Source of the DNA: Sulfurospirillum sp.
GTDB taxonomy: Bacteria > Campylobacterota > Campylobacteria > Campylobacterales > Sulfurospirillaceae
DNA length: 64,000 bases
Direction: 5' to 3'
NCBI GenBank assembly: GCA_016744795.1
Contig: JADGDR010000001.1
Coordinates: forward strand, 124,001 to 188,000
Shown: positions 14,949 through 31,730 of the stretch, piece by piece
Position numbering within the stretch: the first letter of the stretch is position 1
Layout of the letters: each line of letters opens with the position of its first letter
Notes under the pieces: generated by a model
Told to the model about the DNA's origin: nothing
Database searches by the model: none
The model's input: only the letters and a program-made list of their open reading frames with translations
Position numbers and translations under genes: made by a program

Positions 14949-16085
14949 ATGGAATTTTCATATCACAACCCAACGGCTATTGAATTTGGTCAAGGAAAAA
15001 TAAAAGAGATTGCTAATAAAATCAGTAAAGATAAAAAAATATTATTAGTTTATGGCGGAGGATCAATTAAGAAAAATGGTGTATATAATCAAGTTATCAA
15101 AGCATTAGAAAATCATACTTTCTTAGAATTTTCAGGTGTTGAAGTTAATCCAACAGTAGAAACAATGAATAAAGCAGTAAAAATTGTAAAAGAAGAAAAA
15201 ATTGATTTTATTCTTGCAGTTGGTGGTGGTTCGGTTATTGATGGCTGTAAATATTTAGCAGCAGCTTCACTTTATGATGGTGATGCATGGGATTTCTTAG
15301 ATGGAACAACAGAAGTTCAAAAAGCTTTACCAATTGGTGTAGTTTTAACATTAGCTGCAACAGGCTCAGAAACAAATCATTTAACAGTAGTTTCAAAAAA
15401 AGAGACTGATGAAAAAAGAATGTATTTTTCAAATTATTCATACCCTCAATTTGCAATTATGGATGCTAGTGTAATGGCAACACTAAGTGATAGACAATTA
15501 GGAAATGGTTTAGTTGATGCATTCGTTCATACATCTGAACAATACCTTACATATCCAACATCTGCATTAGTAAATGATGGTTATGCTGAAACTTTATTTA
15601 GAGCTTTAGTAACACTAGCAGATACTTGGGAAAATAGGAGAACTGATAATTGGTTAGAAAACTTAATGCATATTGCAAACCAAGCATTAAACTTCCAAAT
15701 TGGAGCTGGTGTTCCTCAAGATTGGTCAACACATCTAATTGGACATGAGTTAACAGCTTATTATAAACTAGATCACGCAAGGTCATTAGCAGTAGTACAG
15801 CCATTTCTTTTAGATGTAATGAGTGAAGACAAAAAAGAGAAAATTGCACAATTAGGTAAAAATGTATTTGGCATAGAAAATGATAATGCAGCCGTAATTA
15901 AAGCAATGGAAAAAGTATATAATAAAGTAGGAGTACCTACAAAATTAAGTGACTATAAAATTGATGATAAAGTAATTTTAAATGTTACAAAAGCATTAAC
16001 AAAAAATGGATACACAGCAATGGGTGAAAATGGAAACATCACTCTTGATAAAGTAGAAACTATTTTAACAATGTCTATGAAATAG
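14949..16085 (+). CDS. Iron-containing alcohol dehydrogenase (YqhD/BDH type)
   Basis: A cytoplasmic NAD(P)H-dependent aldehyde reductase or alcohol dehydrogenase of family III, 378 residues. The nucleotide site GGGSVIDGCK is near residues 96-105. The metal ligands are visible as D and H in LVDAFVHTSEQ (about 194 and 198), H in HLIGHELTA near 263 and H in KLDHARSLAV near 277. The protein resembles E. coli YqhD, which detoxifies short aldehydes. A flanking AraC-type regulator fits the yqhC-yqhD arrangement. Confidence 0.88.
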   Translation: MEFSYHNPTAIEFGQGKIKEIANKISKDKKILLVYGGGSIKKNGVYNQVIKALENHTFLEFSGVEVNPTVETMNKAVKIVKEEKIDFILAVGGGSVIDGCKYLAAASLYDGDAWDFLDGTTEVQKALPIGVVLTLAATGSETNHLTVVSKKETDEKRMYFSNYSYPQFAIMDASVMATLSDRQLGNGLVDAFVHTSEQYLTYPTSALVNDGYAETLFRALVTLADTWENRRTDNWLENLMHIANQALNFQIGAGVPQDWSTHLIGHELTAYYKLDHARSLAVVQPFLLDVMSEDKKEKIAQLGKNVFGIENDNAAVIKAMEKVYNKVGVPTKLSDYKIDDKVILNVTKALTKNGYTAMGENGNITLDKVETILTMSMK

Positions 16086-16309: not shown

Positions 16310-16972
16310 ATGAAAATTTTACTTCTAGAAGATGATTATAGTTATAGAGTTAGTATAAAAGAATTTCTTGAGTCTTTTGATTATGAAGTTGATGATTTTG
16401 AGAATGGACAGGATGCTTTAGATGCCGTCTTTGAAAATGACTATGCACTTTTACTTTTAGATGTAAGAGTTCCTACTATTTCTGGTCATGAAGTTCTCAA
16501 AGAAGTAAGAAAAAACGACATTGATGTTCCTATTATATTGGTTACTTCATTAACCGATATTGATGATTTGAGCCTTGGTTACGAGATTGGGTGCAATGAC
16601 TACATTAGAAAACCATTTGCTCTTAAAGAGCTAAAATGCAGAGTAAACCAAACTATCAATAATTTTCAATTCAAAACTAGTAAAAGTAATATAAAACTAG
16701 ACTTCAATTTTATCTATGATTTAGACAAACATGAGCTGATGAAAAATGGTGAATATGTAAAACTTACTATTGTAGAACAACGAATAATTCAGTTTCTCAT
16801 TAGAAGATTAGGTTCATTTTCTACTACGAACGAAATGACTACAACACTCTGGGATGATGATTTTATTACTGATGCAGACTTAAGAATGCATATAAAAAGA
16901 ATTCGAGATAAAACAGATAAAAATCTTATATTAAATTCTCGTGGACTTGGATATAAAATTGAGAAAATATAA
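16310..16972 (+). CDS. OmpR/PhoB-type response regulator
   Basis: A 220-residue two-component regulator. The receiver domain (1-115) has the acidic pair near the N-terminus (EDD, residues 7-9), the phosphorylation aspartate in LLLDVRVP near 52, the threonine/serine in LVTS near 80 and the lysine in IRKPF near 102. A winged-helix DNA-binding domain follows (about 130-218). It shares 32 bases with the histidine kinase gene, so the two are translated together. Confidence 0.92.
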   Translation: MKILLLEDDYSYRVSIKEFLESFDYEVDDFENGQDALDAVFENDYALLLLDVRVPTISGHEVLKEVRKNDIDVPIILVTSLTDIDDLSLGYEIGCNDYIRKPFALKELKCRVNQTINNFQFKTSKSNIKLDFNFIYDLDKHELMKNGEYVKLTIVEQRIIQFLIRRLGSFSTTNEMTTTLWDDDFITDADLRMHIKRIRDKTDKNLILNSRGLGYKIEKI

Positions 16973-18128
16973 TATTTCAATAGCCTTTTACTCTTTAGTA
17001 CTTTCTTCTTTAATAACTTTTGCATTTGCACTCTTGTCTTACTTTTATATTCAAGAATCTATTTCTACTTTAAAGCTACAAGAAAAGTACAAAATAGAGT
17101 ACTATGCTGATAAAATTACAAAACAAAAAAGAACAATCAATGAATTTAAAGAGTTCAACTTTGGAACTTTAGAATCTTTTTTATATAAAGTAGCTATAAC
17201 TAAACGAGATGGTGAAATTTTATTTAGTACCTTTGAAAATATACCAAAATATAACCCTCTAAAAACAGTTTATATAAAAGAAGATAGCATTTTTTATAAC
17301 AACATGAAAGATTTTTTACATGTAGGAAATGTAAGAATTACCATCAAAAAAGATTTTGACTACTCAGGTATAAAACATAGAGTCTTTATTCTTGTTGTTA
17401 ACATCTTTACTTTTTTTCTTTTATGCATGGTATTTTTATATATACATACTTCAAAAGTACACAACATTATGAACAAAAATCTTGATCTATTTTTAAAAGA
17501 TGCTATGCATGAGATAAGAACACCAATAGGTGTCATTCAGATAAATTTAGAATTTCTTGAAAGTACTTTAAAGCCTACTATGGCTCTTAAAAGAGCACAA
17601 GGAGGTCTTAGGAATATAACTTCTGTATATGAAAGTATAGAGTACTTTATAAAAAATGAGAAAATAACTTATAAAAAAAAGTTAGTCAATGTCTCTGCAT
17701 TACTTGAAACAAGAGTAGAATTTTTTCATATCTTAGCAGATATAAAAAATCTAGAAGTAATAAGCAATATGCAAGACAATATCATTTTACATGTAAATGA
17801 TGAAGAGGTACAAAGGCTCATTGACAATAACCTCTCAAATGCAATAAAATATTCAAAAAAAGATACAAAAATTGAAATCAATTTGTACAAAAATCCTACA
17901 TCTGTAGTCTTGAGTTTTACAAATTATGGTGATCAAATAAAAGATACCAATAAAATATTTCAAAGGTATTATAGAGGTGACAATATCAGGGGTGGATTTG
18001 GATTAGGACTTAATATGGTAGAGCATATATGTAGTGTCTACGGTATTATTATAAGCGTAAATTCATCCCAAAATGGCAAAAGTACATTTACCTATACAAT
18101 GCCCTCAAAAATGACAAAAGGAAAATAA
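16941..18128 (+). CDS. Sensor histidine kinase
   Basis: A membrane kinase of about 395 residues. Membrane segments at about 12-35 and 148-170 enclose a periplasmic part of about 110 residues, and no HAMP domain is visible. The H-box is DAMHEIRTPIGV (about 190-200). The N-box NNLSNAIKYS and the G-box GGFGLGLNMVEH give the ATPase domain. No ATG is available near the start. I kept the GTG at 16941, but a TTG at 16959 would also fit and neither has a good ribosome binding site. Confidence 0.88.
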   Translation: MDLDIKLRKYNISIAFYSLVLSSLITFAFALLSYFYIQESISTLKLQEKYKIEYYADKITKQKRTINEFKEFNFGTLESFLYKVAITKRDGEILFSTFENIPKYNPLKTVYIKEDSIFYNNMKDFLHVGNVRITIKKDFDYSGIKHRVFILVVNIFTFFLLCMVFLYIHTSKVHNIMNKNLDLFLKDAMHEIRTPIGVIQINLEFLESTLKPTMALKRAQGGLRNITSVYESIEYFIKNEKITYKKKLVNVSALLETRVEFFHILADIKNLEVISNMQDNIILHVNDEEVQRLIDNNLSNAIKYSKKDTKIEINLYKNPTSVVLSFTNYGDQIKDTNKIFQRYYRGDNIRGGFGLGLNMVEHICSVYGIIISVNSSQNGKSTFTYTMPSKMTKGK

Positions 18129-18129
18129 A

Positions 18130-19401
18130 ATGATAAAGTTTTTTAGTATATTTTTGCTCTTACATGTATACTTGTTCGCAACTGTAGATATAGGATTAAA
18201 TAAAAAAGAAAAACAGTGGTTAAAAGAACATCCATTTATAACAACAGCAATAGACAATAACTATGCTCCTTTTGAGTTTATCGATGAAAATGGAGGATTT
18301 AAAGGTATAGCTATTGATTATATAAAAGAGATAGAGAAAATTTTAGGTATAAAAATCAATATAGTAACAGCAAAAAGCTGGAATGAAGTCACTGATTTAG
18401 CGAAAAATAAATCTATAGATATTCTGTCTTGTTTAGTTAAAACCAGTGAAAGAGCCAAATACCTAAAGTTTACAAAACCATATTTGTCTTTTCCTATGGC
18501 AATAGTCACAAACAAAACAATAGGTTATGTAAATGGGTTAAAAGAGTTAAATGGGAAAACTGTTGCAGTTATAAACGAATATATGGCAGATCAATATCTA
18601 AAAGAGTATAACAAGAATATCTTTTTAGTAAGAACTAAAGACTTAACACAGGGTTTAGAATTAGTCGTATCTGGTAAAACATTTGCTTATGTTGGCAATC
18701 TATCACAAATAACATACTCTTTGCAAGAAAATGGTTTTGATAATTTAGCCATAGCAGGTGTTGCAAAGTATAGATTTAACTATGCTATGGGAGTGAGAGA
18801 TGACGAACCTATATTACGAGATATTTTGCAAAAAAGTATTGACGCTATACCAAATGGAATCAAAGAGAGTATCTATTGTAAATGGTTTCCTCCTCTTTAT
18901 CAACAAGCCATAGATTATACTTTGGTTTGGAAAATATCGATATTTAGTTTTTTTATAATTTTGATTTTTATATACTGGATGTATAGACTAAAAAGTGAAA
19001 TTAAAAAAAGAAAACTTATAGAAAAAAGGCTTACAAGAAACAAAGAGTGGCTAACTTGTAGTTTAAAATCAGCCAATATAGGTGCTTGGGATTGGGATAT
19101 AATACAAAGAGTTATAACAGGAAATTCAGTCTTTGCAAAAATATTAGACCTTGAGGAAGAAGAAGTTTCTATTCAGATAGACCAATTTAAAAAAGAGTTT
19201 ATACATAAAGATGATTTGCAAACCATACTAAAACATCAAGAAGATTGTTTTAGTAGCACTGATGAGTTTTGCAAAACAACATTTAGACTCATTACCAAAA
19301 AAGGTATACTTAAAACAGTTGAATCTCGTAGTAGAATTTTTAAATATGATGAATATAACAACCCTACCAGAATGATAGGGTTTATTAAGGAGATTAAATA
19401 A
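18130..19401 (+). CDS. Periplasmic solute-binding sensor with PAS domain, no output domain
   Basis: A 423-residue protein: signal peptide (1-17), a family 3 solute-binding domain (about 20-255; WLKEHPFITTAIDNNYAPFEF and FVDILSCLVKTSERAKYLKFTKPY-type blocks, quoted in parts), one membrane segment near 268-288, a short coiled linker, and a PAS domain (about 305-423; GAWDWDI is a typical PAS start). Proteins of this plan usually continue into a kinase, GGDEF or EAL domain. This one stops right after the PAS. It begins one base after the kinase stop, so it may relay an amino-acid-like signal to that kinase. Confidence 0.8.
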   Translation: MIKFFSIFLLLHVYLFATVDIGLNKKEKQWLKEHPFITTAIDNNYAPFEFIDENGGFKGIAIDYIKEIEKILGIKINIVTAKSWNEVTDLAKNKSIDILSCLVKTSERAKYLKFTKPYLSFPMAIVTNKTIGYVNGLKELNGKTVAVINEYMADQYLKEYNKNIFLVRTKDLTQGLELVVSGKTFAYVGNLSQITYSLQENGFDNLAIAGVAKYRFNYAMGVRDDEPILRDILQKSIDAIPNGIKESIYCKWFPPLYQQAIDYTLVWKISIFSFFIILIFIYWMYRLKSEIKKRKLIEKRLTRNKEWLTCSLKSANIGAWDWDIIQRVITGNSVFAKILDLEEEEVSIQIDQFKKEFIHKDDLQTILKHQEDCFSSTDEFCKTTFRLITKKGILKTVESRSRIFKYDEYNNPTRMIGFIKEIK

Positions 19402-19408
19402 GCTTAGA

Positions 19409-20332
19409 TTAAGAGATTATCTTGAATCTCTCGTTAGGACGCTTGTCATCATATGTATGTAACATAATCTTTCTCGGAAAGTATTTATCAGCACAGCCAA
19501 TACAAGGATGACCTGCTTTTATACAGATATTTGTATTGTCATTATGTCCATTTATAGGACAATCATTTTTAGTAACAATACCTTGACAACCCAAGTAATA
19601 TAAACAACCTTCATCACCAATCTTTTTAGCAAATTTCTTTCTTGTAAAATAATCATGTCTAGTACACCTTTCATGGATAGTTTTTGAAAAGAATCTAATA
19701 GGACGCTTCTCTTTATCTAACTCTGGAAGACTTTTAGTTTTAAGATAATAAAACAATACATAGAGTAACTGCTCTGGTTTCATGGGACAATTTGGAAGAT
19801 TTATAACTGGTTTATTAATGCCTTTATAGCTAATAAAATCAGCTAAAGTTTTTGGTCCTGTTATCATTCCATCCATATCTGTAATACCACCAAAACTTGC
19901 ACAGGTTCCAGCAGCAATACAAACACTTGCATTTTTAGCTAATTTTTCCACCCAGTAAGTCATAGGTTTATCACCCATCATACAAGCATGAGGCATAGCT
20001 ATTGGAATAGAACCCTCCAATATAAATATAGAATCTTTGTATTCATTTGCACGCTCTAACAAATCAGTAACTTGATGTCCTGTTGCTAATGAAATATCTG
20101 GATGAAAAATAACATTTGTATACTCTGTTAAAATATCTACTACTGAAACACCTTCTATATTTAAAAATGATGTTGAGCAACCAGAACATGATGTTCCATG
20201 CAACCAAACTAAATTAGGTTTTGTTATCTCACCTCTATCCATAGCAAGTAAATCATCAAAACTTAAAAAGCTCGATGCTCCAACAGCTACGACTACTTTA
20301 TACATATTTTTTAGTATTTCTCTTCTAGTCAT
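19409..20332 (-). CDS. hydA: [NiFe] hydrogenase small subunit, Tat-exported
   Basis: The FeS electron-transfer subunit of a periplasmic hydrogenase, 307 residues. A short twin-arginine signal begins TRREILKNM. The proximal cluster motif HGTSCSGCSTSF is near residue 45, followed by AAGTCASFGG and LPNCP. The C-terminal half carries the distal and medial cluster ligands (HERCTRHDYF, EGCLYYLGCQG, NDCPINGHND, GHPCIGC). The protein ends soon after, without the C-terminal membrane helix found in cytochrome b-linked forms. It is the last gene of the dba-dsbI operon, preceded by an AAGGAG site. Confidence 0.93.
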   Translation of the reverse strand: MTRREILKNMYKVVVAVGASSFLSFDDLLAMDRGEITKPNLVWLHGTSCSGCSTSFLNIEGVSVVDILTEYTNVIFHPDISLATGHQVTDLLERANEYKDSIFILEGSIPIAMPHACMMGDKPMTYWVEKLAKNASVCIAAGTCASFGGITDMDGMITGPKTLADFISYKGINKPVINLPNCPMKPEQLLYVLFYYLKTKSLPELDKEKRPIRFFSKTIHERCTRHDYFTRKKFAKKIGDEGCLYYLGCQGIVTKNDCPINGHNDNTNICIKAGHPCIGCADKYFPRKIMLHTYDDKRPNERFKIIS

Positions 20333-20342
20333 CTTGTTCTCC

Positions 20343-21893
20343 TTAATGTACTGAACAAGCTATACAAGGATCAGTTGATCTTACGATTCTTGCTAACTCT
20401 ATTGGATTATTTTCATCTGCAACTTTTGTGCCAATTAGCATTTGCTCTACAGCACCTGCCCTATCAATACTATCTTTAGGAGAAATATTCCAAGTAGTTG
20501 GTACTATCATCTCGTAGTTTTTGATAAGCCCATTTTCATCAGTCTCTATCCAGTGAGCTAAAGCTCCACGACTTGCTTCTGTAAAGCCAAATCCTGTAGC
20601 ATTCCTAGGAACATCACGTTCAATAAAACCAAGCTCTCCAGGTACTACTTTATTCAAATCATTTTCAAGTCTTTCAACAACAACTAGAGAAATTAAAGCA
20701 CGACAAAGATGTCTACCCATAACTGAGTTATAATCATTTAAATTGATTCCTAACTCTGCATTTGTCTCATCTATTAACTTGTTAAATGCTGGATTATGTC
20801 CACTCTTATAAGTATTTATCACTTGGGCAACTGGTCCAACTTCTACAACTTTATCTCTATATCTAGGTGCTTTACTCCAGCTATATTTTCCATTGTCTTT
20901 TTTATGCTCTTTTTCAAATTCATACCAATTTAGTGGTCTTATGGAGTTTTGTTCTAATGGCGCATAATCTTTTTTATCATCTTTATAGTAAGAGTATTTT
21001 TGAGACTCTACAATTTGAGTATCTTTAAGTGCTTCAAACTTACCATCAATAGTAGACCCACCAACAAATAAGAAGTTCTCTCCATTTTCATCTGGCATAA
21101 AATCAAAATTTAGAAAATCACCAGTTCCTTTTCCCATGTTAAAGTACTCTTTATAGTCTTTTGCAACTGCTTTTACATCTGGAACATAAAAATCTTTAAT
21201 GAACCTCTTAGTTCTTTTTAAAAGTGTTTCATACTTTACAAGTGCATCTACAGTTGGTCGCGTGGTAATTCCACCTGCTTCAATGGCAACAGGATGTGGA
21301 GATTTACCACCAAAAATAGCTACCATTTTATGAATCTCCGCCATCATTGGAATTGCATCAAGATAGTGTTTAACTGCCGTGATATTTAAATTTGTATTAT
21401 TTGTGTACGCCGTTTCATATCTTGGTAAAAAAGGAGTTGCAGGAAAAATTTTTCCACTTTTTAACTCTTTTTCAACCCATTTTTTTAATCCTACTAACGC
21501 GCTATCGTTACCTTTGTATTTTGTTATAGCAGTAATATCGATAAAATCTAAAGCACTCAATATATAAAAATGTAATATATAATCTTGTAAACGATAAGCA
21601 CCAACTACAAGGTTTCTAAGCAAATATCCATTTTTATTTAACTTCAAACCCATTGCATTTTCTAATGCTAACGCTGAAGCTTCAGCCTGAGCATAAGGAC
21701 ATACTCCACAAACTCTTTGAGTTACTTGCTGAGCAACTTTTGCATCATATCCTATAAGTGCTTTTTCTATACCTCTATACATATCAGCAGAACATTTAGC
21801 ATCTTTAACAACTCCATCTTTAGAAAATGTTGTTTCAAATTTAAGATGCCCTTCAATCCTTGTTAAAGGGTCTATGACCACTCTTTTTGACAT
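20343..21893 (-). CDS. hydB: [NiFe] hydrogenase large subunit without C-terminal extension
   Basis: The catalytic subunit, 516 residues, that would cleave or form H2 at a NiFe(CN)2CO centre. The N-terminal motif RVCGVCPYAQ gives Ni/Fe ligands C62 and C65, but the usual histidine three residues later is glutamine (Q69). The C-terminal motif DPCIACSVH gives C510 and C513 and ends at H516, with the stop codon directly after it. Most hydrogenases carry a further 15 or so residues that a protease removes after nickel insertion; none are encoded here. Both traits recall H2-sensing (regulatory) hydrogenases, yet the partner subunit has a Tat signal and the operon encodes a redox enzyme. Confidence 0.93.
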   Translation of the reverse strand: MSKRVVIDPLTRIEGHLKFETTFSKDGVVKDAKCSADMYRGIEKALIGYDAKVAQQVTQRVCGVCPYAQAEASALALENAMGLKLNKNGYLLRNLVVGAYRLQDYILHFYILSALDFIDITAITKYKGNDSALVGLKKWVEKELKSGKIFPATPFLPRYETAYTNNTNLNITAVKHYLDAIPMMAEIHKMVAIFGGKSPHPVAIEAGGITTRPTVDALVKYETLLKRTKRFIKDFYVPDVKAVAKDYKEYFNMGKGTGDFLNFDFMPDENGENFLFVGGSTIDGKFEALKDTQIVESQKYSYYKDDKKDYAPLEQNSIRPLNWYEFEKEHKKDNGKYSWSKAPRYRDKVVEVGPVAQVINTYKSGHNPAFNKLIDETNAELGINLNDYNSVMGRHLCRALISLVVVERLENDLNKVVPGELGFIERDVPRNATGFGFTEASRGALAHWIETDENGLIKNYEMIVPTTWNISPKDSIDRAGAVEQMLIGTKVADENNPIELARIVRSTDPCIACSVH

Positions 21894-21921
21894 AATTTTT
21901 CCTTTTTGATAACTAATTATG

Positions 21922-22557
21922 TTATTTTTTAAGAAGAATTATAAAAAACTCTTCTTCAATTTTTAAAATATTTAGAATAAACTCAGCAAGATTTTTCCAT
22001 ATTTGTTTCTCACTGTTATTAGATATATCATCACAAAAATTTGGAAACCACTGTTTAGGATGTTTATATAAAAACTCCTCACGAACCAAAATGAGCTCTT
22101 TTGCCTCTTCTATCTTCTTAGCCTTAATAAGTTCAACTACTAACTGAGAAACATAAAAAAGATATTGAAATTCTAAGCCAATAAAGTCATCTGGAAATTG
22201 ATCTTTTTTCTCTACTTCTAGACCAACTTGTGCATAAAATTCTCTTACTTCAAATGTAAATTCTCTCATCATAAGCTGTTTTTGGGATCTATAAACTGAT
22301 TCAAATGGAGTAGCCAATGGTTTTTTTGGACCAATAAACAGTCTGTTATACTCCCACCTTACCTCATCTAAATCGCTTGTTTCTAAAACTTCCAAACTTT
22401 TAACAAATGACGATTTTTGTAACTTTTGATTTAGAAGTTTTGATTTGTTTTTTATTTCCCAAATAGTGTTTTCTTTCCATTGGTTAAAAAAAACAACTCT
22501 TAACAAATCATATACATTTGAAATATTTTGGTGATACTCTAATTCTAAATTTTCCAT
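21922..22557 (-). CDS. TorD/DmsD-family molybdoenzyme chaperone
   Basis: A 211-residue helical protein. The motif FPDDFIGLEFQYLF near residue 130 matches the conserved E/DxxPDH...ELEF region of redox enzyme maturation proteins, and RWEYNRLFIGP near 70 is the other typical block. The family binds the Tat signal of molybdoenzymes until the cofactor is inserted. It lies between the FeS subunit and the hydrogenase large subunit, so it may serve the molybdoenzyme, the hydrogenase small subunit, or both. Confidence 0.82.
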   Translation of the reverse strand: MENLELEYHQNISNVYDLLRVVFFNQWKENTIWEIKNKSKLLNQKLQKSSFVKSLEVLETSDLDEVRWEYNRLFIGPKKPLATPFESVYRSQKQLMMREFTFEVREFYAQVGLEVEKKDQFPDDFIGLEFQYLFYVSQLVVELIKAKKIEEAKELILVREEFLYKHPKQWFPNFCDDISNNSEKQIWKNLAEFILNILKIEEEFFIILLKK

Positions 22558-22578
22558 TTTAGCCCCTAATTCTCTGCA

Positions 22579-23142
22579 CTAATTGATTTTTATATAATCT
22601 CCACTTCTAAATTTTGGATAAAATCTGATTGATGGTTTCATACTTGATATTTCAAATCCTACTGTAGTTTTTGACATACTAGCTGCATCGGACACTCTTA
22701 CATCAACTAATTTAAGAGTATCCATAGGACATGCCGCAACACAAACAGGGAGTTCACCTACATCTTGTTTTTCAGCACACATATTACATTTTTGTGCTTT
22801 TGCATCTTTACCCTTAAGTGTTATTGCACCGTATGAACAGGACTCTTCACAGTATCCACAACCTATACATTTATCACGATCCAATTCAACTATTCCATCA
22901 TCTCTTTTTATGTACGCATATGTAGGACAAACTTTTACACACTCAGGCTCTTCACAATGGTGACAAGAACTTGAAATATATACTTCTTTTTCCATATTAG
23001 TATCGTTATAGAAAAAAGTATCAACATGTCTCCAATTAATAAAATCTTCTTGCTGATGATATACTTGACATGCAATTTCACAGGCTTTACAGCCTATACA
23101 AAAATTCTGGTCAAATAAAAATCCTTTTTGACTTTTTAACAT
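22579..23142 (-). CDS. Four-cluster [4Fe-4S] ferredoxin subunit (DmsB/PsrB type)
   Basis: A 187-residue electron-transfer subunit. Four cysteine groups can be seen in order: CIGCKACEIAC (15-25), CHHCEEPECVKVC (about 60-72), CIGCGYCEESC (about 92-102), and CNMCAEKQ...CVAAC (about 119-142). This matches the FeS subunit of DMSO- and polysulfide-reductase-like enzymes. It has no signal of its own and would be co-exported with the Tat-bearing catalytic subunit. No NrfD/DmsC membrane anchor is encoded nearby, which is unusual for such pairs. Confidence 0.9.
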   Translation of the reverse strand: MLKSQKGFLFDQNFCIGCKACEIACQVYHQQEDFINWRHVDTFFYNDTNMEKEVYISSSCHHCEEPECVKVCPTYAYIKRDDGIVELDRDKCIGCGYCEESCSYGAITLKGKDAKAQKCNMCAEKQDVGELPVCVAACPMDTLKLVDVRVSDAASMSKTTVGFEISSMKPSIRFYPKFRSGDYIKIN

Positions 23143-23155
23143 TTCCTATTCCCTC

Positions 23156-25477
23156 CTATACTTTTTTAACTTCAATATATGATGCTGTATATACAGAGCC
23201 TTGACCCAAATCACTAATACCATCACTACATAAGAAGTTTGCACCTGTTTTAGTTTTAGTTGTTTTTAGCCATATGTTATTCCAAGCGTATGTGATGCCA
23301 TCTTTCATTTGCGTACTAATTCTTACTCTAAAAAATGCTTCACCCAACTCATTTTTAGCACTTACTACGCTTCCTTCTATGATTCCTCGTAGAAGTGCAT
23401 CTTCTTTTGTCATAAACAGTTCTGGATAACCATCATAATCAACACGACTAGCAATATACTTTGTACTTCCCCAGTTTGAGTTATTTTGAAGTTGCGTTCC
23501 TGGAGTCATAAAATATAGTGGGTATTTTTTGAGATACTCAACCCCAAAATCTTTATGCTCTTTATAATAACTCTCATCAGTTCCAAGATCAATTACAGGA
23601 TGAAAACCCTCATTTTTAAAATGTTGTGAAAATAGTTCACACTTGCCAGATTTAGTTTTAAATACTAAATTATCTTTTTCATGATAGGGGTAATAAGGAA
23701 AATGCTCTTTCATAGTTTTAGAGTTTCTCACAGGTTTTACCCAACCAATAGTTTTTAGTTTTTCATAAGACGTGCCTTGAGATTTATTAAATTTTGTATC
23801 AAACATCATTCTTAAAATTTGCTCTGCATTCCATGTAAAACACTCATCTTTAAAGCCCATTGCTATCGCAATTCCATTAAAAATCTCTAAATTATTTTTA
23901 CTCTCTCCAACTAACTTTGCAGCCGCTGCGTTATAACAAACATAACCAGAAACTTGGTCATTTTGAACATCTTCTGACTCTAAAAAAGTTCCTGCAGGCA
24001 TAACAATATCAGCATAATCAACAGTATCTGTATTAAAAGGATCCATCACTACTAAAAAGAGGTTATCTTTAAGAAGTCTATCTTTAACTAATTGGGTATT
24101 TGGTGCTGTTACCATTAGATTCGTATTGTAGTTTATAACCGCTCTAATAGGAGTTTTTAGTTTTACTTCTTTATATGAAGCAGAACTAGTATCTAAACTA
24201 GTAGGATTATCAAGTCTTAAAGCTCTACCAAATTGAACATAATTTGCAGTTTGTCTTTGTATCTTTTTACCTTTTGAATCTTTTGGAGAAAGATCTGGCG
24301 ATACTTTATCAAACGTATAACATGGTTTAAGATTTGTATATGCCCAAAAAAGTCCAGCACCTGGTTTTGTTAAAGCACCAACAAGAACTGGTAAGAAAGT
24401 AACTGCACGAACAAGTCTAGCTCCATTAAAGTGTCTTTGTCCCCCATCACCATGAGAAATAGCAGGAGCTTTTGCTTTTGCATACTCTCTTGAGAAAACT
24501 TCAATCTCTTTAACCGTAATGCCACACATATCGGCTAACTGCTTTAGTGTGTACTCTTTTGTCTCTTTTATTAAATCGTTAAAACCCATGGTATAGTTTT
24601 CAACAAATTTTCTATCATATAAATTTTCTTCAATGAGCACCTTACAGACACCTAAACAAAAAGCAGAATCACTACATGGCTTAAGCTGAATAAACATATC
24701 GGACTGACTTGCCATTGGAGTTCTTACTGTATTAATAGTAATTAACTTGCCACCTCTTCTTCTTACATCTTGCCCAAACTTAGCCCAGTGAACAGCCGTA
24801 TAAGCTTCATTTGAACCCCAAGTAATATACATATCTGAAAGATCAAATTCAAGAGCATCTTTTGAATATGGAGTTCCTATTACACTAGGAGTTCCTGCAT
24901 ACCTTGGCCAATCACATGGGTTTCTTACTAGTCTAGTTGCTCCAATTTTCTCGAAAAAGTTACCTGGAGCAACTGACTTGCTAATATATCCTTCATTTCC
25001 AGAATATACAAACTCTCCAATTGCCTCTCCACCGTACTTATCTATAATTTTTTTGAATTTTTTTGCTGTAAAGTTAAATGCTTCATCCCAACTGATGCGT
25101 TCCCATTTACCTTCACCCTTTTTGCCAGCTCTTTTCATAGGGTACATAATTCTGTCAGTTGCATACAGGTACTCTCTATATGCATGACCTTTTACACATG
25201 CTGTTCCTTTTGTAACAGGGTGTGCAGGGTCACCTTTAATGTCTATCATCACTCCATCTTGTACTTCGGCAATTAATGCACATGCATCACGGCAATTCCT
25301 AGGACAGGTTACATGATGAAACTTTGAATTTCCTTTTGGCTTAGTTGGGCTGAAAAGTGGATTTTCCTCAGCTATTGAATAATTCATACCAAAAAGTGGA
25401 ACACTCATCAAACCTAAGCTTGCTCCTTTAAGAAAGCCTCTACGACTTACATTCATATCTTTTTTTAAAACTTGCAA
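23156..25477 (-). CDS. Tat-exported molybdopterin oxidoreductase (DMSO reductase family)
   Basis: A 773-residue catalytic subunit that binds bis-MGD. The twin-arginine signal is SRRGFLKGASLG (about 11-22). The [4Fe-4S] site CPRNCRDAC is near 59-67 with a later cysteine in GTACVKGHA. The molybdopterin domains follow, ending with the FFRVRIS and YIEVKKV strand region. The substrate cannot be read; polysulfide, thiosulfate, sulfoxides or an organic acceptor are all possible. I kept the TTG start because an AGGAGG site lies five bases before it; the first ATG is 21 bases further on. A hairpin precedes the gene. Confidence 0.9.
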   Translation of the reverse strand: MQVLKKDMNVSRRGFLKGASLGLMSVPLFGMNYSIAEENPLFSPTKPKGNSKFHHVTCPRNCRDACALIAEVQDGVMIDIKGDPAHPVTKGTACVKGHAYREYLYATDRIMYPMKRAGKKGEGKWERISWDEAFNFTAKKFKKIIDKYGGEAIGEFVYSGNEGYISKSVAPGNFFEKIGATRLVRNPCDWPRYAGTPSVIGTPYSKDALEFDLSDMYITWGSNEAYTAVHWAKFGQDVRRRGGKLITINTVRTPMASQSDMFIQLKPCSDSAFCLGVCKVLIEENLYDRKFVENYTMGFNDLIKETKEYTLKQLADMCGITVKEIEVFSREYAKAKAPAISHGDGGQRHFNGARLVRAVTFLPVLVGALTKPGAGLFWAYTNLKPCYTFDKVSPDLSPKDSKGKKIQRQTANYVQFGRALRLDNPTSLDTSSASYKEVKLKTPIRAVINYNTNLMVTAPNTQLVKDRLLKDNLFLVVMDPFNTDTVDYADIVMPAGTFLESEDVQNDQVSGYVCYNAAAAKLVGESKNNLEIFNGIAIAMGFKDECFTWNAEQILRMMFDTKFNKSQGTSYEKLKTIGWVKPVRNSKTMKEHFPYYPYHEKDNLVFKTKSGKCELFSQHFKNEGFHPVIDLGTDESYYKEHKDFGVEYLKKYPLYFMTPGTQLQNNSNWGSTKYIASRVDYDGYPELFMTKEDALLRGIIEGSVVSAKNELGEAFFRVRISTQMKDGITYAWNNIWLKTTKTKTGANFLCSDGISDLGQGSVYTASYIEVKKV

Positions 25478-25511
25478 AAATTCCTCCTTGCTAAAATTGT
25501 TTTAGTTAAAA

Positions 25512-25539
25512 TTGCACTAAGGACAAAACCTTAGTGCAA
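25512..25539 (-). terminator. Intra-operon hairpin between dsbI and the molybdoenzyme gene
   Basis: A perfect 11-bp stem (TTGCACTAAGG at 25512-25522, CCTTAGTGCAA at 25529-25539) has a 6-base loop. Read in the operon direction it is followed by TTTTAAC, so it may terminate part of the dba-dsbI transcripts. It may instead mark a processing site that separates dba-dsbI from the downstream genes. Confidence 0.6.
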
Positions 25540-25552
25540 AAAAACTTTGCTT

Positions 25553-27061
25553 CTATTTTAAAATATAAAGCATGTTCTTATCATTTTGATAACTAACCAC
25601 ATAAAGTTCGTCATTAACAAAGTCCAAACCTCTAATGTTTTTTATTTCGCTAGGAAAAGAGTAAGTGTCTATTATTCTGTCTGTTGCAGTGTTGATTACA
25701 ACAATAGTATTAAAGTTTTTACTAGCAGCGTAAAGCTTTCCATTTTTGTAAGCTAATGCTGTTACATATAGTTCACCTAGTTTTCTATCTTTTTTAAGAG
25801 TTACGCCATAACCTATTTCTGGTGTTAATTCTGCTGAAAGCATTCCATCTGCATTTGATTGCTTAATAAGAATAAAGCTTTTATTTAAATTGTTTGGAAC
25901 AGATATTGTGTAACTATATTTATCATCTGCAACAAAACTACTGATATAATTTGTTTTTGCCCTAAGTGTCTGGAACATTGATCTGTCTACTTTAGTAAAC
26001 TTATCAGCACCCTCATAAAAATCAGCAAACCCTACTACTTCATCAGCATTATCATCAGCTTTAACTGTTATATATGCCTTGTTATATCCCATAACTTTTA
26101 TATCATCTCCAACAAAGTCAACACCAACAAAGTTTAATACTACAGGAAAGTACAGATGATCTAAAACAAAATACCTTTCTATGGACTCTAGTTTTTTATC
26201 ACATAGATACAGTCCCCAATCCTCTGTTGCTATAGCAAATTTCTTACTACTTTTATCAAATCTGATTGAATTTATAGGAGCATTAAGGTCTAAACTAATC
26301 TCTTTTTTAGACTCAATACTTAATAATTTATTGATTTTCAAAGGTGAATCTGCAAAATCATTATTAAAATTAAACTCTTTTGCAGGACTTGTTGAAAGAT
26401 CAGGATCGCTTACACCCATAGGACCTCTCCATGAAGGCTCTGAAAAAACATTGGGAAGTAATGAACCCCATGAAATATACTTTGGATTTAATGTAAATCT
26501 TTGAGGACTGTCAGGACCAGTAAAAGGAGGAGGACCAACTGCAACAAACGCTTGAAATGCATTTGAAGTTACAATCACTAAAAACACTACAAAAGTAATA
26601 TTATTTAGTTTTGAAAGTTCTCTGTACTCTTTGTTTTTCGTATCTTCAACTAACTCTTCTAGAGTTGGAGCTGTAAAAAGCAATATAAGTCCAAATAGAA
26701 CAATAACTGTCCACATAACAATACCAGCCCACATTTGTGTATGGATATTCAATATCATCAAGGCTTGCCCTTGACCCATATCTAATTGAGCATATATTCC
26801 TAAGTGCCAAAAAGCATTCCATAAACCATAACCAGCAGCTATTAACATCATGCCTACATACTTTAGTTTTAAGCCATATCTGATTATAAATAGTGCAGAT
26901 GTTGCAACAACAATCATCATTATTCTTAGCGCCCAACAACTTGTGCACGGAGAATCCCCTAACATATAACCAAAAACTATATTTGCGATTCCAACAGGAA
27001 GTGCTATAATACCAATAGCCGCAAGGGATATTAATGTATAAAATCTTGTATTTTTTTCCAT
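25553..27061 (-). CDS. dsbI: DsbI-type thiol oxidase fused to a beta-propeller
   Basis: An inner-membrane DsbB-family protein of 502 residues. Five hydrophobic segments cover residues 8-190, and the DSPCTSC loop gives the redox pair C39-C42. The rest (about 215-502) is a periplasmic beta-propeller-like domain with repeated strands such as GLDFVNDELYVVSYQ. Canonical DsbB has a second periplasmic cysteine pair; the only other cysteine here is in the propeller (LYLCDKK). The start at 27061 is preferred over the ATG six bases upstream because of the spacing from the AGGAG site. The dba-dsbI order matches Campylobacter jejuni. Confidence 0.85.
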   Translation of the reverse strand: MEKNTRFYTLISLAAIGIIALPVGIANIVFGYMLGDSPCTSCWALRIMMIVVATSALFIIRYGLKLKYVGMMLIAAGYGLWNAFWHLGIYAQLDMGQGQALMILNIHTQMWAGIVMWTVIVLFGLILLFTAPTLEELVEDTKNKEYRELSKLNNITFVVFLVIVTSNAFQAFVAVGPPPFTGPDSPQRFTLNPKYISWGSLLPNVFSEPSWRGPMGVSDPDLSTSPAKEFNFNNDFADSPLKINKLLSIESKKEISLDLNAPINSIRFDKSSKKFAIATEDWGLYLCDKKLESIERYFVLDHLYFPVVLNFVGVDFVGDDIKVMGYNKAYITVKADDNADEVVGFADFYEGADKFTKVDRSMFQTLRAKTNYISSFVADDKYSYTISVPNNLNKSFILIKQSNADGMLSAELTPEIGYGVTLKKDRKLGELYVTALAYKNGKLYAASKNFNTIVVINTATDRIIDTYSFPSEIKNIRGLDFVNDELYVVSYQNDKNMLYILK

Positions 27062-27073
27062 AATCATCTCCTC

Positions 27074-27244
27074 TTATAGATTCATCGGTGGAAGCATGAA
27101 AAATTGTATATCAATTGCGAAAAACACAACTGCAATCAGTACAAATACCCCAACAAATAACTTAAACGCCAACGCTTCTTTCTCTGGTTTTTTCCAAATT
27201 AAATAAGCGATTAAAATTAGAATTGACAACTCTAAAAACTCCAT
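27074..27244 (-). CDS. dba: Dba-like small membrane protein
   Basis: A 56-residue protein with two hydrophobic stretches (LELSILILIAYLIW and LFVGVFVLIAVVFFAI) around a charged KKPEKEA loop. It ends 12 bases before dsbI. In Campylobacter jejuni a short membrane protein, Dba, is encoded directly before dsbI and translated with it, so position and size support this call. The ATG at 27244 has an AAGGGA site six bases upstream. A longer TTG reading adds five residues but would put that site inside the gene. Confidence 0.7.
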   Translation of the reverse strand: MEFLELSILILIAYLIWKKPEKEALAFKLFVGVFVLIAVVFFAIDIQFFMLPPMNL

Positions 27245-27454
27245 AAATGATCCCTTCAAGTAAATAAGCTATGCAAAATAGCTACACAACACAAAGAACT
27301 ATTTGTTCTAACCTCTTATTGTCTTAATTTATTAAATATTCTTAAATACTTAAACTTTTTTAACATTAAAAGATTAACAATCAAAAGTAAAATTAACGTA
27401 ACAATGGATAGTTTTTTATCTTATTTGCTTATTTTCCAAGTCCTTTTAACTGAT
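27245..27454. other. Gap between dba and the CRISPR array
   Basis: This 210-base AT-rich stretch must carry the promoter of the dba-dsbI operon. Two small inverted repeats are present: AGCTAT/ATAGCT (27267-27272 and 27278-27283) and AGAAC/GTTCT (27295-27299 and 27305-27309). Neither has a clear role. I could not pick out a convincing -35/-10 pair. No gene is seen. Confidence 0.4.
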
Positions 27455-28018
27455 ATCACGGCTTTCATTCCTACATGTAAATGCTATAATTATTGCTGAA
27501 CAAGTTGTTATCGTTGCAACGTTATAGCTTCCGTTCCTACATGTAAATGCTATAATTGGCACTTGCGAACATAGTACCCAACTATGGTTATAGCTTCCGT
27601 TCCTACATGTAAATGCTATAATCAGCTAGCTTTTATGTGGATAGTGCAAATTGTTATAGCTTCCGTTCCTACATGTAAATGCTATAATGGACTAGGCGGA
27701 GCAGGTGGAAATGTTGGAGTTATAGCTTCCGTTCCTACATGTAAATGCTATAATCAAACTAAGCAACGTTTCATTCACCTTTTTGTTATAGCTTCCGTTC
27801 CTACATGTAAATGCTATAATTCGCAGCAATACTACTTGCATCAGCTTTTGGTTATAGCTTCCGTTCCTACATGTAAATGCTATAATAAGATTAAAACAGC
27901 TACACAGGTAGATAAAGTTATAGCTTCCGTTCCTACATGTAAATGCTATAATTAAGCTGCACCTGTCATCACTTGAGCGACTGTTATAGCTTCCGTTCCT
28001 ACATGTAAATGCTATAAT

Positions 28019-28180
28019 ACTTGGTTTAAATACAAAATCATCCCACTTGTTATAGCTTCCGTTCCTACATGTAAATGCTATAATAGAAGTATTTTTAACT
28101 ACTTCAACATTTTTGTTATAGCTTCCGTTCCTACATGTAAATGCTATAATTTTCATTTTTGAATTTAAAAAGTTCACCTA
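28019..28180 (+). repeat. Duplicated three-spacer block, copy 1
   Basis: Spacers 9, 10 and 11 of the array with the two repeats between them. The same three spacers in the same order recur at 28745-28906, offset by 726 bases (11 repeat units). Confidence 0.95.
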
Positions 28181-28744
28181 GTTATAGCTTCCGTTCCTAC
28201 ATGTAAATGCTATAATTATCTCACCATTGTCTATTTGGGCACGTGTGTTATAGCTTCCGTTCCTACATGTAAATGCTATAATAGAATAGTTACTGACACA
28301 ACCTTTTTATATGTTATAGCTTCCGTTCCTACATGTAAATGCTATAATAATGTTTATAAAATATTAAATGCATAGAGCGTTATAGCTTCCGTTCCTACAT
28401 GTAAATGCTATAATGCCGTTGTCTAGGTTTAGTGCCATACTATCGTTATAGCTTCCGTTCCTACATGTAAATGCTATAATAGGTCGCGTTTGCTTTGTTC
28501 CCTTATTTCGGTTATAGCTTCCGTTCCTACATGTAAATGCTATAATACTAGTATTTAATTTATCGCAATCTATACAGTTATAGCTTCCGTTCCTACATGT
28601 AAATGCTATAATTTATTACTACGCTCAAGCTTTAAAGGTATTGTTATAGCTTCCGTTCCTACATGTAAATGCTATAATATTAAATGAAAAGCTTAGTGAT
28701 TGGAATCAGTTATAGCTTCCGTTCCTACATGTAAATGCTATAAT

Positions 28745-28906
28745 ACTTGGTTTAAATACAAAATCATCCCACTTGTTATAGCTTCCGTTCCTACATGTAA
28801 ATGCTATAATAGAAGTATTTTTAACTACTTCAACATTTTTGTTATAGCTTCCGTTCCTACATGTAAATGCTATAATTTTCATTTTTGAATTTAAAAAGTT
28901 CACCTA
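28745..28906 (+). repeat. Duplicated three-spacer block, copy 2
   Basis: Spacers 20, 21 and 22, identical to spacers 9, 10 and 11. The spacers before and after the two blocks differ, so the shared segment is limited to these three units. Eight other spacers lie between the copies. Confidence 0.95.
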
Positions 28907-30400
28907 GTTATAGCTTCCGTTCCTACATGTAAATGCTATAATTCAAAAATTAGAACTTGATGACAAGTTTATGTTATAGCTTCCGTTCCTACATGTAAAT
29001 GCTATAATTAAAGACTACAATCCTGAACGACTACCGTAGTTATAGCTTCCGTTCCTACATGTAAATGCTATAATTCACTAAATCCTCCTATCTGCTCGTC
29101 TAGCGTTATAGCTTCCGTTCCTACATGTAAATGCTATAATTTATATTCAAACTAAATAGCTTCATCTTTCGTTATAGCTTCCGTTCCTACATGTAAATGC
29201 TATAATATTAGGGTGTCGTTTAATTCAGCAAATGCGGTTATAGCTTCCGTTCCTACATGTAAATGCTATAATTCCTATTGCTGCTTCTGTTGGATTAACC
29301 CCGTTATAGCTTCCGTTCCTACATGTAAATGCTATAATATTTCGTTCTGCATTATTTAGCTTCATCTAGTTATAGCTTCCGTTCCTACATGTAAATGCTA
29401 TAATGTCGATGAAAGTGCAATTGCTGACGATTTTGTTATAGCTTCCGTTCCTACATGTAAATGCTATAATTACAGTTACTGAATTACAAGAGCTTTTACA
29501 GTTATAGCTTCCGTTCCTACATGTAAATGCTATAATAAAATAGAACATTACAATAGTCATCATAATGTTATAGCTTCCGTTCCTACATGTAAATGCTATA
29601 ATGCTGTCTATGTTTATCCAATCAAATGGCAAGTTATAGCTTCCGTTCCTACATGTAAATGCTATAATGGAACTATGGATAATATCTAAATGTACCGCGT
29701 TATAGCTTCCGTTCCTACATGTAAATGCTATAATCTGTTTGTCTTTTGCATCTGCATTAGTTACGTTATAGCTTCCGTTCCTACATGTAAATGCTATAAT
29801 CTCTATATGAGGCATATCTTTAAAACTCCAGTTATAGCTTCCGTTCCTACATGTAAATGCTATAATTAAACCCAAAAATAGAAACGATTTACGCTCGTTA
29901 TAGCTTCCGTTCCTACATGTAAATGCTATAATAAAATTTAAAGTGCGTGTAGATATAGATTTGTTATAGCTTCCGTTCCTACATGTAAATGCTATAATCA
30001 TATAGATACAATGAAGACGTAAAAGTTCGTTATAGCTTCCGTTCCTACATGTAAATGCTATAATTAACTATTCAAGAAAGTATAGATGTTTCGAGTTATA
30101 GCTTCCGTTCCTACATGTAAATGCTATAATGAGGAATTTGCAGGATATACGTATCAAGACGTTATAGCTTCCGTTCCTACATGTAAATGCTATAATTCAA
30201 TCTCGTTGCAACCTATAACATCATAAGTTATAGCTTCCGTTCCTACATGTAAATGCTATAATAAGTAAAAATTTACTTAGCAAAGAAAATAGGTTATAGC
30301 TTCCGTTCCTACATGTAAATGCTATAATAGATACAGGCAAATATACCTTATTATTCTCGTTATAGCTTCCGTTCCTACATGTAAATGCTATAATACCTAG

Positions 30401-30441
30401 CTTTAGAACCCTTATATCAAGGGTTCTAAAGATTTTTCTTT
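30401..30441 (+). terminator. Rho-independent terminator of the CRISPR array transcripts
   Basis: A perfect 13-bp stem (CTTTAGAACCCTT at 30401-30413, AAGGGTTCTAAAG at 30419-30431) with a 5-base loop is followed by ATTTTTCTTT. The U-tract is on the + strand only. It therefore ends transcripts coming from the array, and confirms that the array is read toward the cas genes. Confidence 0.88.
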
Positions 30442-30490: not shown

Positions 30491-30823
30491 TTAAAACAAA
30501 AGAAGTTGATTTTTTGTGATTTTTTTCTCTTCTATTGTCTCTTTTCCAACTAAAATTTGCATTCTTCCATATTGTTTTTCTGTTATTTGTAAAATTCTTA
30601 CATTTCCTGAGCTTGGAAGATTTTGCATAATTTTATTTTGATATTTATCAACTATGTCTTGACCTTTACAAACTCTAACGTATATAGAATACTGAAGCAT
30701 CATAAAACCAAGTGATAAAATATGATTTCTAAACTTAGTAGCTTCTCGTCTATGTTTTTTGCTACTTGTTGGTAAGTCAAACAATACGATAAGTCTCATA
30801 AATCTACTTTCATAATTATTCAT
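30491..30823 (-). CDS. cas2: CRISPR-associated endoribonuclease Cas2
   Basis: The adaptation-complex subunit, 110 residues. The core MRLIVLFDLPTSSKKHRREATKFRNHIL (read in parts) carries the typical beta-1 aspartate and the type II-like TSSKKHRR. The YSIYVRVCKG strand follows. The listed start overlaps the cas1 stop by 8 bases; a second methionine eight codons later (MRLIVLFDL) could also be used. It is the last cas gene, next to the intact end of the array. Confidence 0.93.
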   Translation of the reverse strand: MNNYESRFMRLIVLFDLPTSSKKHRREATKFRNHILSLGFMMLQYSIYVRVCKGQDIVDKYQNKIMQNLPSSGNVRILQITEKQYGRMQILVGKETIEEKKITKNQLLLF

Positions 30824-31730
30824 TTACTTCCAATGATGGCAAAAGTATATCTTCATACTCTTTTGATTTTATTGCATTTGCTAAAGATGAAGCTACAATG
30901 TCACAACAGTTCAAAAGTGTTGTTTCATGGTTATCTATATTCGCTTTTACAGAAAAAAGCTCATACAATCTATTCTTGTCTTCTTTTATGAATCTCTGCT
31001 TTCTTTTGCATATATCTTCTAAACACTCTTCGTACATTTCATAAACCACAACATCTATAAAAGCACGAAATGGCTCTATTATATCATCTGCTAGACTGAA
31101 TGCATTGAGTTGATTTTTATGATGAATTCCAAAAGAAGGGATAAGTCCATAAGAAACCAAACTCCTTGCTATTGCTCCACGTATCAAAGAGTATCCATAA
31201 TTAAGAGCTTTGTTTCTCCAATCTTCTTCATCTCTTCTGTTAAATGGTGCAAACAGATACTCAAAATACAACTTAGCCGATGAACTTTCTACATTCGTAC
31301 TATCTCCTGATTTTACATGTAAAGATAAATTATATATTTTTTTATAATTTTTATTTTTTATGTATTTTAAACAATATGCCTGATTTTGGATTTTTTGTAC
31401 GATTATTTTTTGCCAAATATTCTTTTTAAATGGTTTCGTCCATCCTATTTGAAGATGTGCCATAAGAGAATATCGACTATGTTGGTGAAATGGTAAAAAA
31501 ATACCATTTGGAGTATGCTTCTCATCACAAGAAAAAAGTACAATATTAAGCTCAGCTATTTTTGAAAAAAGTGCATTTGTAATACTTACTTGATGAGTTT
31601 CTAAAACAATAACTGATATATCTTCTATGGGAACACTTATGGACTCCCCTTCCAATGGAGAATATAAAAAGTTTTTTCTATGCAACGAAATTTTTGAGGC
31701 ACTTGATATAACTACTACTCTATAACTCAT
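30816..31730 (-). CDS. cas1: CRISPR-associated integrase Cas1
   Basis: The spacer integrase of the adaptation complex, 304 residues. Visible parts are the N-terminal beta domain (VVISSASKISLHRKNFLY), the catalytic-helix region with ALNYGYSLIRGAIARSLVSYGL near 180-200, HH in FGIHHKNQLNAF near 208, and ADDIIEPFRAF with the metal-binding acidic residues near 222. I placed the start at 31730, where ATG overlaps the cas9 stop in TGATG and an AAGGA site lies seven bases before it. A longer frame reading into cas9 exists but lacks such support. Confidence 0.95.
   Translation of the reverse strand: MSYRVVVISSASKISLHRKNFLYSPLEGESISVPIEDISVIVLETHQVSITNALFSKIAELNIVLFSCDEKHTPNGIFLPFHQHSRYSLMAHLQIGWTKPFKKNIWQKIIVQKIQNQAYCLKYIKNKNYKKIYNLSLHVKSGDSTNVESSSAKLYFEYLFAPFNRRDEEDWRNKALNYGYSLIRGAIARSLVSYGLIPSFGIHHKNQLNAFSLADDIIEPFRAFIDVVVYEMYEECLEDICKRKQRFIKEDKNRLYELFSVKANIDNHETTLLNCCDIVASSLANAIKSKEYEDILLPSLEVNE

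Follow-up and report, generated by a model that had tools for sequence, protein, structure and literature searches.

A seven-gene operon joining a [NiFe]-hydrogenase to a molybdoenzyme module without a membrane anchor in Sulfurospirillum sp.

Operon layout, boundaries, and conservation

The DNA analyzed here (the window) is a stretch of 64,000 nucleotides from the 2.68-Mb, 30-contig genome of a Sulfurospirillum sp. It contains seven genes on the minus strand between positions 27259 and 19409, in the order dba, dsbI, molybdoenzyme (Mo) gene, Fe-S gene, TorD gene, hydL, and hydS. Pfam and NCBIfam matches agreed with all seven gene names, with the Mo subunit, Fe-S subunit, DsbI, and Dba scoring under the curated cut-offs of every NCBIfam family shown.

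The first gene, dba (27074–27259), encodes a small membrane protein of 61 aa from a TTG start or 56 aa from the ATG at 27244 (NF050061, E = 8.7e-10, 38.3 bits, cut-off 90), and dsbI (25553–27067) encodes a 504-aa protein with a DsbB-like membrane domain (Pfam DsbB) and a C-terminal periplasmic domain (NF050065, E = 2.5e-150, 501 bits, cut-off 800). With 38 and 501 bits against the Campylobacter families, both under the cut-offs, Dba and DsbI are homologous to Campylobacter Dba and DsbI, yet of a different branch. The Mo-bisPGD catalytic subunit (23156–25477, 773 aa, Tat signal, Mo ligand Cys188), read from a TTG or alternatively from an ATG at codon 8, matched PF00384, PF04879, and PF01568, its best NCBIfam match being dmsA_ynfE (271.8 bits, cut-off 777.7). 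It is followed by a four-cluster ferredoxin-type electron-transfer subunit (22579–23142, 187 aa, DmsB-type TIGR02951, 132.7 bits, cut-off 214.1) and a TorD/DmsD-type chaperone (21922–22557, 211 aa, PF02613, E = 3.7e-28). The last two genes encode the [NiFe]-hydrogenase large subunit HydL (20343–21893, 516 aa, PF00374, 457 bits) and the small subunit HydS (19409–20332, 307 aa), which carries a Tat signal and matched PF14720, PF01058, and TIGR00391, the last at 185.4 bits and above its cut-off of 179.5. A response regulator, a histidine kinase, and a solute-binding/PAS protein, identified by Pfam, are encoded on the plus strand immediately next to the operon (16310–19401).

The intergenic gaps from dba to hydS were 6, 75, 13, 21, 28, and 10 bp in order, with 10–28 bp separating the genes from the Mo gene through hydS. 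A terminator scan of the coding strand identified terminator-like sites at only two positions, 25539–25512 between dsbI and the Mo gene and 19382–19360 just past hydS. The former is a minus-strand stem-loop (25512–25539) with an 11-bp stem that could be a terminator, an attenuator, or a processing site; stem-loops of other sequence occur at this site in the related genomes G061 and G272, and none in G312. Because this stem-loop separates dsbI from the Mo gene, dba and dsbI may be transcribed, expressed, or processed independently of the five genes that follow.

A preliminary description of this DNA had proposed the same seven-gene order and two Tat-exported enzymes, and both proposals held, with Tat signals in HydS and in the Mo subunit. 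It had also named independent transcription of the hydrogenase genes as evidence against its reading, and from the Mo gene start to the end of hydS the coding strand contains no terminator-like site. The search that it recommended for the same order elsewhere found all seven genes in a single further genus of the family (G061), with 68–87% identity to the window operon (77% for dba). Comparison of the two operons gave dN values of 0.08–0.22 and dS values of 1.0–3.2, indicating purifying selection. Chance placement of the hydrogenase genes was ruled out by this order and purifying selection, both kept in a second genus. The linkage of hydrogenase and Mo module is known from these two genomes only, and the operon is real, rare, and functional-looking.

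Rfam returned nothing for positions 15000–36000 of the window, and a plasmid search gave only matches below 60% identity. Beside dba lies a CRISPR array (27461–30404) of approximately 44 units of 66 bp, followed by cas2-, cas1-, and Cas9-like open reading frames (110, 326, and 959 aa; 30491–34609). Part of its spacer run is seemingly duplicated, as the open reading frames at 27692–28177 and 28706–28903 have the same first 65 residues. Elsewhere in the genome (G000:C7:366473–380526), two Mo genes with in-frame TGA, which probably encode selenocysteine formate dehydrogenases, lie on either side of a weak match to a [NiFe] large subunit at 374853, an arrangement that resembles a formate hydrogenlyase cluster.

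The molybdoenzyme module and its membrane anchor in relatives

Relatives of the Mo subunit were found in 21 of 397 genomes of the class (E ≤ 1e-120); within the family, a search of 44 genomes at a stricter limit gave 3 with such a relative. The surroundings were read for 14 Mo operons, namely those of the window, G061, and 12 others. The usual module order was dba, dsbI (single or split in two), Mo, Fe-S, and TorD, with dba or part of dsbI unrecognized in a few relatives. All 12 of the hydrogenase-free operons contained an anchor gene, which was a cytochrome b gene between the Fe-S and TorD genes in G312 and G272 and an NrfD gene after TorD in the other ten. The two hydrogenase-bearing operons contained none, and no b-type cytochrome or NrfD/DmsC gene was present within or adjoining the window operon. 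The anchor absence noted in the preliminary description is therefore strengthened by the anchors present in every hydrogenase-free relative read. Compared with the window and G061, the operons with a cytochrome b anchor had Mo subunits of 77–80% identity and Fe-S subunits with few fixed differences (5 positions), the latter a point against the hydrogenase-coupled function proposed below.

Other irregularities were seen among the relatives. The Mo gene of G215, G098, and G246 was split or had an in-frame stop, as if the module were decaying, and a second dsbI set without an obvious partner enzyme lay on the opposite strand, a few kb away from the Mo operon, at two loci (L086:13721–15331 and L087:14219–16081), the latter set including dba and neighboring an AAA ATPase.

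In the Mo subunit, Cys188 aligned with Sec140 of E. coli FdhH and Asp189 with its catalytic His141. A formate dehydrogenase was ruled out by this pair, and formate is an unlikely substrate because the catalytic His of FdhH is replaced by Asp. Cys ligation of Mo makes a Ser-ligated S- or N-oxide reductase unlikely as well. The top solved structures related to the Mo subunit included FdhF of the hydrogen-dependent CO2 reductase. In the Fe-S subunit, 16 Cys residues were invariant across 14 relatives.

DsbI was found with the Mo subunit in operons without a hydrogenase, and because of this it appears to belong with and serve the Mo enzyme, not the hydrogenase. Of the partners suggested earlier for this thiol oxidase, the Mo enzyme is thus retained and the hydrogenase is not. 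DsbI has one conserved CxxC and lacks a second conserved cysteine pair, so a canonical DsbB-like relay receives no support. Four invariant Cys residues of the Mo subunit outside the cofactor ligands (278, 318, 546, and 750) are candidates for disulfide formation. A literature search for DsbI together with molybdoenzymes was unproductive.

The response regulator, kinase, and solute-binding/PAS genes also adjoin the operons of G061, G272, and G312 (69–79, 52–64, and 60–66% identity for the three genes in order). Across the four operons of this branch they are retained whether or not a hydrogenase is present, and this set probably regulates the Mo module and senses its substrate. The closest solved relatives of the solute-binding domain were an EAL-domain protein, EvgS, and BvgS, which pointed to no substrate.

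The hydrogenase and its chemoreceptor-linked relatives

HydL contains the motifs RVCGVC (RxCGxC) and DPCIAC (DPCxxC), as in group 1 [NiFe]-hydrogenases, but lacks the C-terminal extension cut by a maturation protease that is a group 1 trait, ending instead at DPCIACSVH. All complete HydL sequences of its clade end at DPCxxCxVH, whereas two group 1b copies that were checked run 18–20 residues further. HydS has the Tat signal TRREILK and cluster Cys residues invariant in 12 relatives, and hydropathy analysis revealed no C-terminal membrane helix. The cytoplasmic location and linked kinase of group 2b were not found either, as HydS carries a Tat signal and the kinase next to the operon belongs to the Mo module.

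Relatives of HydL with 55–85% identity were present in 7 further genomes of the 397, and the HydS query returned the same set. A scan of contigs for hydL identified ten loci, including three that match contigs from the seven-genome set. In the HydL tree, the clade was set apart from group 1b with support of 100/100, and the window and G061 fell inside it as one lineage; with the root within the clade open, the Mo and chemoreceptor linkages are unordered in age.

At ten other loci (L005, L007, L008, L009, L010, L012, L013, L056, L057, and L058), hydLS was directly followed by a gene for a methyl-accepting-type chemoreceptor (MCP), and no Mo gene of the window kind adjoined hydLS at any of them. 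At the nine loci with enough flanking sequence (all but L010), the MCP gene began within 10 bp past hydS and encoded 585–599 aa with two periplasmic CxxCH motifs. At L010, from a Halorhodospira MAG with 67% G+C, an MCP N-terminus judged similar by eye overlaps the hydS stop codon, and the contig ends there. The sensor domain of this haem MCP was found neither in the genome of the window nor in G061; in both, all matches started at query residue 314 or beyond, in the signalling part. The same search thus found no haem MCP encoded apart from hydLS in the genome of the window. An AlphaFold model of the sensor region (pLDDT 71, moderate) gave weak matches to the extracytoplasmic sensor domains of WalK, KinD, and Tlp3.

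The preliminary description did not include this kinship with chemoreceptor-linked enzymes, and the hydrogenase-chemoreceptor pair may be the more general discovery. From its gene arrangement, the hydLS-MCP pair is a candidate H2-taxis system in Campylobacterota and the Halorhodospira MAG. HydDB lists a putative chemotactic class for [FeFe] enzymes only, and a full-text literature search, with subscription journals mostly outside its reach, found no [NiFe] chemotactic counterpart. Judged by position, hydLS of G039 is very likely GAmH_0978/0979 of Nautilia profundicola Am-H, which was published as the second, soluble uptake hydrogenase of that organism; the description consulted makes no mention of a chemoreceptor.

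Comparison of small subunits identified 31 positions common to the window and G061 and unlike all MCP-linked HydS sequences. Ten of the 31 fell within residues 220–252 (p ~0.001), a clustering that concerns a single branch and a region picked after the alignment was seen. Charge changes included E231 to R near the distal cluster and E283 to K further on. Such substitutions near the distal cluster would be the trace expected from a change of electron partner.

Proposed function and comparison with known systems

From the observed gene order, anchor absence, motifs, hydrogenase clade, and conservation in a second genus, we consider it slightly better than an even chance (probability approximately 0.55) that the operon encodes an anchor-less, soluble, periplasmic H2:acceptor oxidoreductase in which the hydrogenase is the electron input of a Mo reductase. 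The soluble periplasmic enzyme proposed in the preliminary description thus remains the simplest reading, with its lack of an anchor upheld, and its electron path is one that we infer. The Mo module (Dba, DsbI, Mo, Fe-S, and TorD) would have exchanged its NrfD or b-type cytochrome anchor for a two-subunit [NiFe]-hydrogenase. HydS and the Mo subunit are expected to be periplasmic because both carry Tat signals, and with the haem-MCP partner absent from both genomes, the closest candidate to accept electrons from HydS is the Fe-S subunit, whose counterparts in relatives are paired with an anchor. HydS would dock on the four-cluster protein via its distal Fe-S cluster, and electrons would pass from H2 to Ni-Fe, the three HydS clusters, the four clusters of the Fe-S subunit, the Mo-subunit cluster, and finally Mo, where a periplasmic substrate would be reduced. 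Such an enzyme would work without electron exchange with quinone and would conserve no energy as proton motive force. Its benefit is a matter of guesswork; H2 might provide the reducing power to detoxify or salvage some compound, probably the one to which the neighboring solute-binding protein and two-component system respond. A broader proposal, which we put forward tentatively, is that the clade provides the H2-sensing input of haem chemoreceptors in Campylobacterota and Gammaproteobacteria and has here been wired to a Mo reductase, replacing the quinone anchor.

The closest solved relatives of HydLS were the Desulfovibrio periplasmic hydrogenases, which use c-type cytochromes, and the apparent partner of the HydLS relatives is likewise a c-type haem protein. 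HydLS and the Mo enzyme might accordingly be only co-regulated, with soluble HydLS reducing a c-type cytochrome and the Mo enzyme drawing on another donor. We regard this as rather unlikely, as it does not account for the loss of the anchor exactly where hydLS appears, and the operon contains no cytochrome c gene.

The genome of the window contains two NrfD genes (contigs C13 and C20) and four b561-type genes, comprising the gene for the group 1b HydC, a gene on C17, and two more on C1 and C28. An anchor acting in trans (NrfD, a b561-type cytochrome, or group 1b HydC) could serve the Mo enzyme or HydLS and make the system quinone-linked, and the C17 b561 protein shares 45% identity with the G312 anchor. 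This gene, however, sits in a second anchored Mo-FeS-cytochrome b operon of its own (L106:150–4190), whose Mo subunit is only ~25% identical to that of the window, and it has no counterpart in G061, where a search with the cytochrome b of the anchored operons also found nothing. The C-terminal helix by which group 1b small subunits join HydC is missing from HydS; both HydC and this helix occur in the group 1b operon that the same genome encodes, where hydropathy places the helix in HydA, and neither is present in the window operon. The two NrfD genes each have other Mo genes in their vicinity. The specific anchor encoded elsewhere that had been raised against the soluble reading was thus not found, the NrfD genes and the traced b561 genes (HydC and C17) all sitting with other enzymes, and we consider an anchor in trans distinctly unlikely.

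Regulatory hydrogenases have a large subunit without a C-terminal extension, as does HydL, and with chemoreceptor-linked relatives and a two-component system adjoining the operon, HydLS could be an H2 sensor here too, signalling via that system. This appears improbable: in G272 and G312, where no such hydrogenase occurs, the two-component genes still adjoin the Mo operon, so that they are disfavored as an H2 sensor, and a haem motif was noticed in neither the kinase nor the solute-binding protein. Most improbable is the reverse reaction, in which the Mo enzyme would oxidize a low-potential substrate and the hydrogenase release H2, for although the medial cluster motif of HydS, in which Cys replaces the usual Pro (ICIKAGHPCIGC), predicts a low-potential [4Fe-4S] cluster, as in H2-evolving [NiFeSe] enzymes, formate as the obvious low-potential substrate is disfavored by the Asp at the catalytic His position.

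If the soluble H2:acceptor reading is true, the quinone anchor of a respiratory molybdoenzyme is exchangeable for a hydrogenase, yielding a self-contained H2-fed reductase. The little-noticed pair of [NiFe]-hydrogenase and haem chemoreceptor is in turn a candidate basis of H2 taxis in vent and sediment bacteria.

Among known systems, DmsABC/PsrABC-type complexes share the Tat-exported Mo-bisPGD subunit, the four-cluster Fe-S subunit, and the TorD-type chaperone, whereas the window operon has a hydrogenase instead of an anchor and subunits under the named NCBIfam cut-offs. The MCP-linked [NiFe] clade (Sulfurimonas, Nautilia, and Halorhodospira) resembles the window in HydLS (47–65% identity), Tat signal, and the lack of extension and anchor, but there a chemoreceptor with two haem motifs follows and no Mo gene is nearby, whereas the window operon contains no MCP. 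The putatively chemotactic HydDB group C2 is [FeFe] and signalling-linked, whereas the window enzyme is [NiFe] and without a receptor. Group 2b regulatory [NiFe]-hydrogenases likewise have no C-terminal extension but are cytoplasmic and kinase-linked, whereas the window enzyme is exported. The Aquifex hydrogenase-sulfur reductase supercomplex also couples H2 oxidation to a Mo reductase, but it is membrane-bound and quinone-linked. The hydrogen-dependent CO2 reductase (FdhF-HycB-HydA2) is likewise a soluble chain of hydrogenase, multi-cluster ferredoxin, and Mo/W enzyme, a precedent for the proposed window system and an analogy to it in working principle; that enzyme is cytoplasmic, with an [FeFe]-hydrogenase and a formate dehydrogenase, whereas the window enzyme is [NiFe], exported, and, by its active-site pair, not a formate dehydrogenase.
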